In this document: piece after piece, positions 12,567 to 19,507 of the stretch
Position numbering within the stretch: the stretch's first letter is position 1
Layout: the number at the start of each line of letters is the position of its first letter
DNA from: an uncultured Ectothiorhodospiraceae bacterium
Lineage (GTDB): Bacteria; Pseudomonadota; Gammaproteobacteria; Nitrococcales; Halorhodospiraceae
Direction of reading: 5' to 3'
DNA length: 34,339 bases
NCBI GenBank assembly: GCA_913055575.1
Contig: CAJXLI010000011.1
Coordinates: forward strand, 1-34,339
The notes under the pieces: generated by a model
The model's input: only the letters and a program-made list of their open reading frames with translations
Databases searched by the model: none
What the model was told of the DNA's origin: nothing
Translations under genes and position numbers: made by a program

Positions 12567-14234
12567 ATGAAGCGAATCTGCTGGATCCTGTCCGCCCTGC
12601 TCGCGCTGAGCGCGGGCCCGGCCCTCGCGGCGGAGGCGCCGGCCGAGCCGCCGATCCCCGGCGCGTCGAATGAGGAGCCCGTCGGCTCGACGGCCGACCA
12701 CAGCCAGTTCGGCGTGCTGGAGGGGCCGTTCGAGACCGGGCAAGAGGTTACCCAGGCGTGCCTGACCTGCCATACGGAGGCCGCCGAGCAGGTCCAGAGC
12801 AGCATCCACTGGACCTGGACGTACCAGCAGCCGGCGACGCAGCAGACCCTCGGCAAGCGGTACGTGGTCAATAACCTGTGCATCGGGGTTGCCGGGAACT
12901 ACCAGCGCTGCTCCTCCTGCCACGTCGGCTACGGCTGGGACGACAGCGACTTCGACTTCAGTGCCGAGGAGCGGGTCGACTGCCTGGTCTGCCACGACAC
13001 CACCGGTGAGTACGTCAAGCTGCCCACCGGGGCCGGCCATCCGCCCTACGAGGACACCGAGCTCCACGGCAAGCGCTTCGAGGCGCCGGACCTGGCCCAC
13101 GTGGCGCAGAATGTCGGCGAGACGAGCCGCGAGACGTGCGGCAGCTGCCACTTCGAGGGGGGCGGCGGTGACGCCGTCAAGCACGGCGATCTCGACAGCT
13201 CCCTGCTGGATGCGCCCCGTTCGCTGGACGTGCACATGTCCCCCGAGGGCGGCGACTTCAGCTGCTCCGATTGCCATACCTTTAGCGGCCACATCCAGCG
13301 GGGCAGCCGCTACCACGTGAGCATGCCCGACTACGAGGACTCGCCGCTCGCCGCCCACCCGCACGACAAGCCGGCCTGCGTCGCCTGCCACGGTGGTGAG
13401 CCGCACGAGCCGGGCCTGCACGACAAGCTCAACGCCCACGGCGATCTCATCGCCTGCCAGACCTGCCACGTCCCGGAGATCGCGCGCGGCGGCCTGTCCA
13501 CCAAGACCCGCTGGGACTGGTCGGATGCCGGCCGGATGGGCGCGGACGGGGAGCGCATCGTCGAGCGTAACGAGCAGGGGCGGCCGGTCTACGACACCAT
13601 GAAGGGCTCCTTCGCGTGGCGAGAGGACTACCCGCCGACCTACCGCTGGTTCAACGGCGAGGTGAGCTACACGCTGGTCGGCGACACCATCGACCCGGAT
13701 ACCGAGGTCCCCCTCAATCGCCCGCTCGGCGGCCCCGATGAGGCGGGCTCGAAGATCTGGCCCTTCAAGGTCATCTACGGCCGGCAGCCCTACGACGCCG
13801 GCAACGACCACCTGGTGGTGCCCAAGCTGTTCGGCAGCGAGGGCGAGGACGCCGCCTACTGGCGCAGCTACGACTGGGACCGGGCCATCCGTGCCGGCAT
13901 GGCGGAGGCGCAGGCCATCGGGCAGACCGACGCTGGCTACAGCGGCGACTACGGCTTCGTCGATACCCGCATGTACTGGCCGGTCAATCACATGGTCGCG
14001 CCCGCCGAGGAGAGCGTGGCCTGCGGCGAGTGCCACAGCCCCGGGGGCCGCATGGCGGGGGTGGCAGGGGTCTACGTCCCCGGCCAGGACGGCCATCCGC
14101 TGATCGAGCGGCTCGGCTGGGCGGCGGTGTGGCTCACGCTGCTGGCCGTCCTCTTCCACGGGGGGCTGCGCTACTACCTCTACCGGTACCAGCGCCACGG
14201 CGGTGGGCACAGCGAAGCGGAACGGGGCTCGTGA
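12567..14234 (+). CDS. Octaheme c-type cytochrome, tetrathionate reductase (OTR) family, with C-terminal TM anchor
   Basis: 555 aa; signal peptide; eight CXXCH motifs (CLTCH, CSSCH, CLVCH, CGSCH, CSDCH, CVACH, CQTCH, CGECH); hydrophobic C-terminal helix LGWAAVWLTLLAVLFHGGLRYYLY. Confidence 0.9.
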   Translation: MKRICWILSALLALSAGPALAAEAPAEPPIPGASNEEPVGSTADHSQFGVLEGPFETGQEVTQACLTCHTEAAEQVQSSIHWTWTYQQPATQQTLGKRYVVNNLCIGVAGNYQRCSSCHVGYGWDDSDFDFSAEERVDCLVCHDTTGEYVKLPTGAGHPPYEDTELHGKRFEAPDLAHVAQNVGETSRETCGSCHFEGGGGDAVKHGDLDSSLLDAPRSLDVHMSPEGGDFSCSDCHTFSGHIQRGSRYHVSMPDYEDSPLAAHPHDKPACVACHGGEPHEPGLHDKLNAHGDLIACQTCHVPEIARGGLSTKTRWDWSDAGRMGADGERIVERNEQGRPVYDTMKGSFAWREDYPPTYRWFNGEVSYTLVGDTIDPDTEVPLNRPLGGPDEAGSKIWPFKVIYGRQPYDAGNDHLVVPKLFGSEGEDAAYWRSYDWDRAIRAGMAEAQAIGQTDAGYSGDYGFVDTRMYWPVNHMVAPAEESVACGECHSPGGRMAGVAGVYVPGQDGHPLIERLGWAAVWLTLLAVLFHGGLRYYLYRYQRHGGGHSEAERGS

Positions 14235-14854
14235 GCATGATTCGGATCTTCACCCGGTTCGAGGTCTTCTGGCACTGGACGCAGGCGGCGCTGATCTTCG
14301 GGCTGCTGTTCACCGGGCTGGAGCTGCACGGCAGCTACGCCCTGCTCGGCTTCGGCCAGGCCTTCGCCGTCCACATCGTCCTGGCCTGGGCGCTCATCGC
14401 GCTCTGGGCCTTCGCCATCTTCTGGCACCTGACCACCGGCGAGTGGCGGCAGTACGTCCCCACCGGCACCGGCGTGGCGCGCATGGCGGCCTACTACGCC
14501 TACGGGATCTTCTCCGGAGAGGCCAAGCCCTTCGTCAAGACCCGCTCGGCCAAGCACAATCCGCTGCAGCGGCTGGCGTACTTCGCCTTCAAGGCCGCCA
14601 TCGCCCCGGCCCTGTGGATCTCCGGGCTCCTGCTGCTCTCCTACAACTACTGGGACGGGACCTGGCTGTCCGGGCCGCTGAGCCTGGCCGCGGTCGCCGG
14701 GGTCCACGTCACAGCGGCCCTGGCGCTGATCGTCTTCCTCATCGCGCACGTCTACATGGCCGCCACCACCGGCTCGCCCTGGTACGAGTACCTGCGGGCC
14801 ATGGTCACCGGCTACGACTGCGAGGAGGGAGAGTGCCTGCCGCGACGGCGCTGA
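14231..14854 (+). CDS. Cytochrome b561-type membrane protein, likely electron-transfer partner of the octaheme cytochrome
   Basis: GTG 14231 or ATG 14237; overlaps the upstream stop codon; FEVFWHWTQAALIFGLLFTG and several TM helices with His; C-terminal CEEGEC. Confidence 0.87.
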   Translation: MSMIRIFTRFEVFWHWTQAALIFGLLFTGLELHGSYALLGFGQAFAVHIVLAWALIALWAFAIFWHLTTGEWRQYVPTGTGVARMAAYYAYGIFSGEAKPFVKTRSAKHNPLQRLAYFAFKAAIAPALWISGLLLLSYNYWDGTWLSGPLSLAAVAGVHVTAALALIVFLIAHVYMAATTGSPWYEYLRAMVTGYDCEEGECLPRRR

Positions 14855-14944
14855 GCCCCGCTCCGCGGCGCGCCGGCCCGCCGCTGTAATCAATAAATAT
14901 TCCGTGCGGTGTGGTTCAGGGATGCCACCACACCGGTCCCGCCG

Positions 14945-14991: not shown

Positions 14992-15567
14992 ATGAGCGAG
15001 CAGACGAGCGAGAACGCCGCTACCGGTACGGCGGAGACTGGGCAGCAGGGGCCGCAGCCGAGCGGCGGCCAGGGGGACGGGCAGCAGCAGAAGAGCATGT
15101 CCATCATCGTCACCAAGGGCACCCTGGACTGGGCCTATCCGCCCTTTATCCTGGCGACTACGGCGGCAGCCATGGACGTGAAGGTGAGCCTGTTCTTCAC
15201 CTTCTACGGGCTGCAGCTCCTCAAGAAGCGGCTCGACCACCTGCGCGTGTCCACGCTGGGCAACCCGGGCATGGAGATGCCGATGATGGGCGGGCACATG
15301 AGCATGCCCAACCTGATCTCCGTGCTACCGGGGGCCGACCGCATGGCCTCGACGATGATGCGCAACCTGATCGCCCGCAAGGGGGTGAGCTCGGTCGAGG
15401 AGCTGCGCGAGGCGGCGCAAGAGATGGACGTACGCATGATCGGCTGCCAGATGACCCTGGATCTGTTCGAGTTCAAGCAGGAGGACCTCATCGACGGGGT
15501 CGAGCTGGCGGGCGCCGCAACCTACATGGAGAGCGCCCTGGAGTCGGACATCAACCTCTACATCTGA
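14992..15567 (+). CDS. DsrE/DsrF-like (DsrE2-type) sulfur-transfer protein
   Basis: 191 aa; SMSIIVTKGTLDWAYPPFILATTAAAMDVKVSLFFTFYGLQLL, IGCQMTLDLF (conserved Cys). Confidence 0.88.
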   Translation: MSEQTSENAATGTAETGQQGPQPSGGQGDGQQQKSMSIIVTKGTLDWAYPPFILATTAAAMDVKVSLFFTFYGLQLLKKRLDHLRVSTLGNPGMEMPMMGGHMSMPNLISVLPGADRMASTMMRNLIARKGVSSVEELREAAQEMDVRMIGCQMTLDLFEFKQEDLIDGVELAGAATYMESALESDINLYI

Positions 15568-15574
15568 CCTGTGA

Positions 15575-15610
15575 CGCCGTCGGGCCGTGCCTGCCCAGGG
15601 CCCGACGGCG
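15575..15610. other. Strong perfect hairpin between the dsrE2-like and RHH-TusA genes
   Basis: 12-bp perfect stem CGCCGTCGGGCC/GGGCCGACGGCG type pairing (15575-15586 with 15599-15610), 12-nt loop, no U-tract. Confidence 0.6.
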
Positions 15611-15691: not shown

Positions 15692-16312
15692 ATGCCCGAG
15701 GCCATCCCGATGGGGGCGCTATCCGCCTGGCGCGACGGCGCCGAGGCCGGCGCGTGGGGGGAGACGCCGCTGGAGCGGATGTTCAACCGCTGCGCCCCGG
15801 CGGAGGAGCGCGGTGCCTATGAGCCGGAGCGCCGCTCCCTGCGCGTCGCTGGCCACTGCACCACGATCCGCCTGGAGCGTGCCTTCTGGTCCGTGCTCGA
15901 CGAGATCTCGGCCGGCGAGGGAATGACTGTCCCGGAGATCATCGCCCAGGTGCAGAGCCACTGCCAGCGCGTCAACGACAAGAACCTGGCCAGCTGCCTG
16001 CGGGTGCTGTGCCTGAGGTACCTCAATACCCGTGCCGCGAGCGGCACGGAGGCCCCGGACCCTGAGCCGCACCCGGCACCGGACCGGGGTGCGCGGATGG
16101 AGCTGGACACGCGGGGTCTGGGCTGCCCGCAGCCGATCCTCAAGACCAAGCAGGCGCTGCACAGCCTGGCCTCGGGAGAGGCGCTACGGGTGATCACCAG
16201 CGATCTGGGCTCGGCCATGGACTTCGAGGCCTTCTGCCGGTCGGTCGGCCACCACCTGCTCTGGGAGCGGCACACCGAGGAGACCTTCGTCTTCCTCATC
16301 CGCAAGGGGTAG
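15692..16312 (+). CDS. Fusion protein: N-terminal ribbon-helix-helix (RHH_4-like) domain plus C-terminal TusA sulfur-carrier domain
   Basis: 206 aa from ATG 15692; RRSLRVAGHCTTIRLERAFWSVLDEISAGEGMTVPEIIAQV..NLASCLRVLCLRYL, then from codon 136 MELDTRGLGCPQPILKTKQALHSLASGEALRVITSD (CPxP active site). Confidence 0.87.
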   Translation: MPEAIPMGALSAWRDGAEAGAWGETPLERMFNRCAPAEERGAYEPERRSLRVAGHCTTIRLERAFWSVLDEISAGEGMTVPEIIAQVQSHCQRVNDKNLASCLRVLCLRYLNTRAASGTEAPDPEPHPAPDRGARMELDTRGLGCPQPILKTKQALHSLASGEALRVITSDLGSAMDFEAFCRSVGHHLLWERHTEETFVFLIRKG

Positions 16313-16795: not shown

Positions 16796-18524
<1,729 letters not shown>

Positions 18525-18528
<4 letters not shown>

Positions 18529-19214
18529 GTCTTGCTGTCCTTCTTGTTGACGATGACCTCAGCGGTGCGCAGGACACGGCCGTTGCGCAGGAAGCCTCGG
18601 CGGACCTCCTGGACCACCGTGCCGTCCGGCATGCTGGGCTCTTCGGTCGTCTCCACGGCGTGCATGGTCTGCGGGTCGAAGGGCCGATAGACGGTCTCCT
18701 GCGCCTGGACCCCGCGCCGGGCGAGGATCTCGTCCAGGTGGCGGAGGTTCATCTCCATGCCCTCGGCCATGCGCGCCAGGTACCGCCGGCCTCGGCCGAG
18801 GCGGGCGAGCAGCCCCAGGCGGTACCCTGCCGCCTGGCTGTGGCCTGCCGCCATGCGGTCGCGGAGGTCGAGGAGCTCCTGGAGCACGCCCTGGTCCGCC
18901 CCCTCGCTGGCCGCCTCGGCCCGGCGACGCTCGCGCTGCAGCCCCTCCTGGAGCTCCTGGTTCTGCTCACGCAGCGTCTCACACGCCGCCGAGAGCTGGT
19001 CCAGCGCCGATTTGAACTGGCGGGACTCGAGCCGCACGTCGTTCTTCAGCGCGGCGAGCTCGGCGAGCAGGGTGAACAGGTCCGGCACCTCGCCCTGCCC
19101 CGCGTCCGTGGCCGGCTCTGAGGCGGCCTCTGGCGCGGCCTCCGGCTCCGCGGGGACCTGCTCCAGATACGCCCGGAAGCGGGAGACCAGGGCCTCGCGC
19201 TCGCTGGCATCCAT
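18525..19214 (-). CDS. GrpE-like nucleotide exchange factor
   Basis: 229 aa from ATG 19214; long coiled coil then beta-domain-like VVQEVRRGFLRNGRVLRTAEVIVNK; stop overlaps the Hsp70 start. Confidence 0.83.
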
Positions 19215-19507
19215 CAGCCGTCGCCCCTCAGCAGCGCCCGGAAGGTGCCGGCATCGGGCTGGCCCGGTCCGGTCACCGGTGCGGCCCGCTCCAGCAGATC
19301 CAGCGCCCCGGCGGGGGTCGTGTCGAGGTACGCGTGGGCCAGCCGGTGGCGCTCGGTGCGGATGGCCTCGTAGGCCTGCCGCAGGGCCTCGAACCGCTCC
19401 GGGTCGTGCTCCGGCGGGCACGCCTTGATCGCCGTCAGGTAGGCGGCGTGGACGGCCTCATCGTCGGCCTCGCGCCCGATACCGAGGATCAGGTACGGAT
19501 CGTACAT
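19214..19507 (-). CDS. J-domain-like protein lacking canonical HPD
   Basis: 97 aa: MYDPYLILGIGREADDEAVHAAYLTAIKACPPEHDPERFEALRQAYEAI; ATGA overlap with grpE-like ORF. Confidence 0.78.
   Translation of the reverse strand: MYDPYLILGIGREADDEAVHAAYLTAIKACPPEHDPERFEALRQAYEAIRTERHRLAHAYLDTTPAGALDLLERAAPVTGPGQPDAGTFRALLRGDG

Follow-up and report, generated by a model that had tools for sequence, protein, structure and literature searches.

A ribbon–helix–helix domain fused to TusA: a candidate sulfur-responsive autoregulator of sulfur-transfer genes

What is a sulfur carrier doing in the same polypeptide as a ribbon–helix–helix (RHH) domain? TusA is a small carrier protein of reactive sulfur, and RHH folds dimerise. 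The two are joined in a gene at positions 15692–16312 (forward strand) of the window, the 34,339-nucleotide stretch of DNA from an uncultured Ectothiorhodospiraceae bacterium that was analysed here. A single frame of 206 amino acids plus stop, its ATG preceded by GAGGAGG, encodes an RHH_4 domain (PF13467; residues 46–111, 15827–16024, +; Pfam E 2.5e-23, 82.3 bits against a gathering cut-off of 25), a linker (residues 112–135, 16025–16096, +) and a TusA domain that begins at Met136 (PF01206; Pfam match 136–205; 16097–16309, +; E 1.6e-19, 69.9 bits against a cut-off of 28.6) and carries the CPxP cysteine, Cys145, in CPQP (145–148). These scores bear out the sequence-only reading, an earlier inspection that had described RHH_4 and a full TusA with CPxP in one uninterrupted frame. 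The Pfam search of the fusion returned RHH_4 and TusA only, plus a DUF2249 match below threshold, and no ArsR domain. The C-terminal half is a TusA-family domain that is not filed as canonical TusA, because its 52.6 bits with the NCBIfam TusA equivalog NF001423 fall below the 78-bit cut-off.

Structure prediction, proposed earlier as a check, gives confident RHH and TusA domains in an AlphaFold monomer model (pLDDT 84, pTM 0.52), with a disordered linker of low model confidence that is also fast-evolving. The RHH part is predicted to contain strands 45–52 and 55–62 and helices 63–76, 80–91 and 99–117, and the monomer model shows an additional strand ahead of the ribbon. Foldseek matches the TusA part to E. 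coli TusA (3lvj, 1dcj) and the RHH part to B. pertussis BP1543 (3kk4; E 1.2e-5, TM 0.63/0.58). In strand 55–62, the predicted DNA contact, T57 and T58 are invariant, and R60 occurs in at least 90% of the sequences, in the subfamily described below.

One gene upstream of the fusion, across a gap of 124 bp, lies dsrE2 (14992–15567, +), whose product matches the sulfur carrier protein DsrE2 (NCBIfam SulfCarrDsrE2, 225 bits), so that the neighbour previously called DsrE2-like is confirmed. Farther upstream are genes for a cytochrome b561-type membrane protein (14228–14854, +) and a tetrathionate reductase family octaheme cytochrome c (TIGR04315; 12567–14234, +). The gap that separates dsrE2 from the fusion holds a strong hairpin (15575–15610, +; 15-bp arms, 93% complementary), which could be an attenuator or an mRNA stabiliser. 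Right after the fusion, Hsp70 and GrpE-like genes occupy the opposite strand (16798–19421, −).

The RHH_4 family can be divided. A subfamily profile splits the relatives of the fusion (E ≤1e-23) from ordinary RHH_4 (weaker than 1e-22, mostly 1e-12 to 1e-20), and by this measure the RHH_4 domain of the fusion belongs to a distinct subfamily. Genes for DsrE2, TusA and/or YeeE are found within 4 kb in 63 of 67 subfamily loci, as against none of 20 ordinary RHH_4 loci taken from the same or nearby genomes; in a further 36 ordinary loci, DsrE2, TusA or YeeE lies within 1.5 kb in none (0/36). Among 320 Rhodospirillales genomes, 53 have the RHH, 82 have DsrE2 and 50 have both (Fisher 9e-33, with related genomes treated as independent). 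Two gene contexts recur, dsrE2-rhh-tusA and an rhh divergent from YeeE-YeeE-TusA-rhodanese clusters. Plasmid RHH_4 matches in Paracoccus and Aminobacter were considered and rejected as relatives with a sulfur link, since the annotation shows neither dsrE2 nor tusA beside them.

We propose that the fusion is a TusA-fused, sulfur-responsive autoregulator of sulfur-transfer genes, in which operator binding by the RHH part is combined with handover of sulfur from TusA to RHH cysteines; this seems to us probable, though well short of secure. The RHH_4 half, as a dimer, would bind a 20-bp palindromic operator of the GTNGG-N7-TACYACC type. Placed in front of the operon that contains dsrE2 and the fusion gene, such a site would make the sulfur-transfer genes subject to autoregulation. 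Cys145 of TusA would take up sulfane sulfur, supplied by DsrE2, by a rhodanese or by a donor imported through YeeE; tethered as it is, TusA would pass this sulfur to C91 and C102, together with C34. Sulfur on these cysteines would change DNA binding, and derepression is likelier than the reverse effect. Relatives would achieve the same with RHH and TusA as distinct proteins encoded in a single operon. The proposal joins computed results (fusion, subfamily, linkage, cysteine conservation and motif co-occurrence, with PWM scores and gene calls computed on draft MAGs) to steps that we infer, namely physical DNA binding, sulfur transfer and the sign of regulation. The sulfur-responsive regulator suggested by the sequence-only reading is largely supported at the level of comparative genomics, and partly supported as a whole.

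Among 62 subfamily sequences, C91 (in SHC) and C102 (in ASC) are invariant, and C34 (N-terminal; codon 15791–15793, +) and C107 (in LC) are kept in at least 90%. C34, C91 and C102 are missing in ordinary RHH_4. C107 is common to the subfamily and to ordinary RHH_4, and at the position of C56 (in GHC), within the strand predicted to contact DNA, unfused subfamily members have Ser and some ordinary RHH_4 have Cys. Both C56 and C107, being found in ordinary RHH_4, were rejected as diagnostic. The RHH cysteines picked out earlier as possible sulfur targets thus divide: C91 and C102 stand as invariant but C56 and C107 are not diagnostic, and C34 had not been listed.

The same cysteines might serve a regulator that receives no signal from TusA. 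An RHH_4 autoregulator could bind DNA, the fusion only coupling expression or placing TusA, and the cysteines sensing polysulfide directly or something else, such as metal or redox. Unfused RHH proteins keep the same cysteines, some subfamily loci have no neighbouring tusA, and in Hyphomicrobium polysulfide reacts directly with repressors in vitro (PMC11582611), all of which would be accommodated. It is harder to explain on these terms why the RHH adjoins TusA in most dsrE2 loci, why the two have been fused at least once and possibly twice, and why the fused state has been retained in four genomes. We regard signalling without TusA as unlikely, though deserving of serious weight, and continue to favour the autoregulator that takes its sulfur from TusA.

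That autoregulator would need a DNA site, and a candidate exists. De novo searches upstream of dsrE2 yielded two motifs, A and B, both far above shuffled controls (for motif A, 206 against 35–37 shuffled). Motif A, a 20-bp YGTNGGC-N6-TACYACC, is found upstream of 38 of 41 RHH-linked dsrE2 operons but of 1 of 31 dsrE2 operons in genomes without the RHH (Fisher 1e-15; Fisher values count related loci as independent and so overstate significance). In cross-validation, for which the PWM was built from 11 magnetospirilla, the counts were 22/30 against 2/31. When trained on dsrE2 loci, motif A also occurs upstream of rhh in 13 of 23 held-out loci, mostly of YeeE type, at a score of at least 11, versus 3.6% of random segments; among ordinary RHH_4 loci a score of 10 is reached in 1 of 56. 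The spacing between GTRG and CYAC is characteristic, N10 standing out (27/42) over the next best (7/42).

Examples of the site are CGTAGGCAAAGGCTACTACC in Magnetospirillum moscoviense and another at L037:727-746. In G009 and G011, which also encode the fusion, the sole genome-wide match to YGTNGGC-N6-TACYACC heads the fusion operon. When rhh and dsrE2 fall on separate contigs, dsrE2 nonetheless has motif A upstream in G541, G543 and G423, but not in G469, G470, G600 and G444 or at a second copy in G573. The motif is absent at three loci (L149, L174, L175) despite a subfamily RHH beside dsrE2. The unfused RHH relatives of the fusion appear to recognise one conserved DNA site ahead of their operons, and the DNA-binding role first proposed for this part of the protein gains support from the retained T57, T58 and R60 and from a motif upstream of dsrE2 that tracks the RHH gene. 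At one locus (L259, in G513) a clear motif A stands at a dsrE2 operon and no RHH was found in the genome, the gene possibly being missing from the assembly. Ordinary RHH_4 genes of one family (L102, L107, L109, L110, L114) have GGTGGCAGCCGATTACCACG-like palindromes upstream in the motif A register, and RHH_4 proteins in general may use GTGG-N10-CCAC sites.

Motif B, ATATTAG-N6-CTAATAT, is a second conserved palindrome at the same promoters (L119–L168, L232–L262). It is largely independent of the RHH, occurring at 34 of 41 RHH-linked operons and 18 of 31 dsrE2 operons without RHH. Since it also occurs where RHH is lacking, and most YeeE-type loci do not have it, it was rejected as the RHH operator, and it is probably another regulator's site. 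Could motif A, too, be the site of a different regulator, one inherited along with the RHH gene, while the RHH serves some other purpose? Motif B points to other regulators acting at these promoters, and the tree-corrected contrast is underpowered (p=0.25), with only 4 well-supported independent pairs, nearly all neutral or pointing as expected. However, the regulator in question would need to accompany RHH in two different gene clusters and on separate contigs, and RHH is the gene common to both clusters. We consider this reading quite improbable.

The RHH half might also bind no DNA at all and act only as a scaffold for dimerisation, or as a domain for protein binding, that brings TusA and DsrE2 together, a use that the sequence-only reading had allowed. 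The dimerising fold, the uncharacterized RHH_4 relative in the PDB and the additional strand before the ribbon are compatible with such a role, but motif A upstream of dsrE2 follows the presence of RHH and not that of dsrE2, and it is also found beside RHH in loci of a different gene set. What speaks against a scaffold alone is that free-standing RHH proteins, with no TusA fused to them, show the same cysteines and the same motif association; we would give the scaffold reading very little credence.

In the window, no motif A match near dsrE2 reaches the PWM threshold, and the candidate operator is a degenerate palindrome. This inverted repeat, CGGTGTGGT-TCAGGGATGCC-ACCACACCG (14907–14935, +), lies just upstream of dsrE2 in the window and in G004, another fusion genome, where it is conserved and its arms change as a pair. 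It is in register with motif A at 14910–14929 (TGTGGTTCAGGGATGCCACC) and scores 6.0 with the motif A PWM. Aligned by eye, it equals the dsrE2 site of G541 at 15 of 20 positions, and all differences are transitions. For GTRG-N10-CYAC alone, a chance match in that gap is expected at roughly 1–5%, as estimated from 12 matches in 34 kb. As a motif A-type operator the palindrome is no more than suggestive, and an RNA hairpin is an alternative reading of it.

The same in-frame fusion is present in three other genomes, G004, G009 and G011 (86%, 70% and 66% identity; range about 65–86%), and dsrE2 precedes it in every one of the four. The three are separate MAGs, with records named Ectothiorhodospiraceae and Halorhodospira; fusions of this kind belong to some halophilic sulfur bacteria. 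The RHH part is 80–90% identical among the fusions, compared with 65–86% for the full length. Between the window and G004 the dN/dS components are 0.036/0.259 for RHH and 0.052/0.181 for TusA, while the N-terminus is unconstrained (0.186/0.160) and the linker relaxed (0.233/0.513), values which indicate that purifying selection acts on both halves and not, or less so, on the N-terminus and linker. Although the window derives from a draft MAG (83.7% complete), the assembly or frameshift error that the earlier reading had raised against itself is ruled out with near certainty, and the fusion is genuine, because homologous fusions share its frame in G004, G009 and G011, no stop interrupts any of the four, which come from two genera, and both halves are under purifying selection.

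The fusion evidently joined operon neighbours, since in Rhodospirillales dsrE2, RHH and tusA are usually separate and adjacent; in M. moscoviense they are three separate neighbouring genes. The concern that homologs might always be two proteins is thus right for most Rhodospirillales, but one Halorhodospira-type clade retains the fusion. In the RHH tree the four fusions form one group (100/100) whose sister is a Rhodospirillales relative, and DsrE2 from the fusion clade likewise falls among Rhodospirillales sequences. By contrast, in the genus-mate G002 the DsrE2 encoded beside TusA is highly divergent and no RHH was detected. Together the trees and the contrast with G002 suggest that the cassette was transferred from an alphaproteobacterium and then fused. 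An independent in-frame RHH+TusA ORF occurs in one Rhodospirillales genome (G543; locus L130, 3772–4308), with an apparent internal ribosome site and an ATG ahead of TusA. RHH and TusA have been joined in a single polypeptide at least once, possibly twice.

In the open-access literature searched, no paper was found that links RHH regulators with TusA and DsrE2. The idea that these proteins form an RHH family not described before, whose members respond to sulfane sulfur and autoregulate DsrE2-TusA and YeeE-TusA operons with TusA as dedicated sulfur donor, and with donor and regulator as one protein in Halorhodospira-type bacteria, is in our judgment evenly poised. A branch of the uncharacterized RHH_4 family gains a hypothesis about its function, a set of cysteines and a candidate DNA site. 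TusA has been proposed, without proof, as sulfur donor to the repressor SoxR in Hyphomicrobium (PMC10451225), and PMC11582611 leaves the question open. Because the fusion of TusA to a regulator occurs naturally, has relatives encoded by separate genes in culturable Magnetospirillum and comes with a predicted operator, the TusA-to-regulator question can be tested directly.

BP1543 (3kk4), alone among relatives of the RHH part in having a solved structure, shares its RHH_4 domain and fold and is uncharacterized; ordinary RHH_4 proteins, unlike the subfamily of the fusion, are without C34, C91 and C102 and without linkage to sulfur genes. E. coli TusA (3lvj, 1dcj) and TsuB/YeeD have the same complete TusA fold with CPxP, but without a fused DNA-binding domain. 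The dsrE3A-dsrE2B-tusA cluster of Metallosphaera (PMC4175335) similarly unites DsrE-family and TusA genes; the abstract of that paper names no regulator in the cluster. A parallel in organisation is offered by SoxR and sHdrR of Hyphomicrobium denitrificans, ArsR-type repressors responsive to sulfane sulfur, which are likewise small cysteine-containing regulators encoded with genes for TusA, YeeE-like SoxT and DsrE. Those repressors have an ArsR winged helix and two conserved sensing cysteines; here the fold is RHH_4, the candidate cysteines are the invariant C91 and C102 and C34, kept in at least 90%, and TusA lies within the same polypeptide as the regulator.
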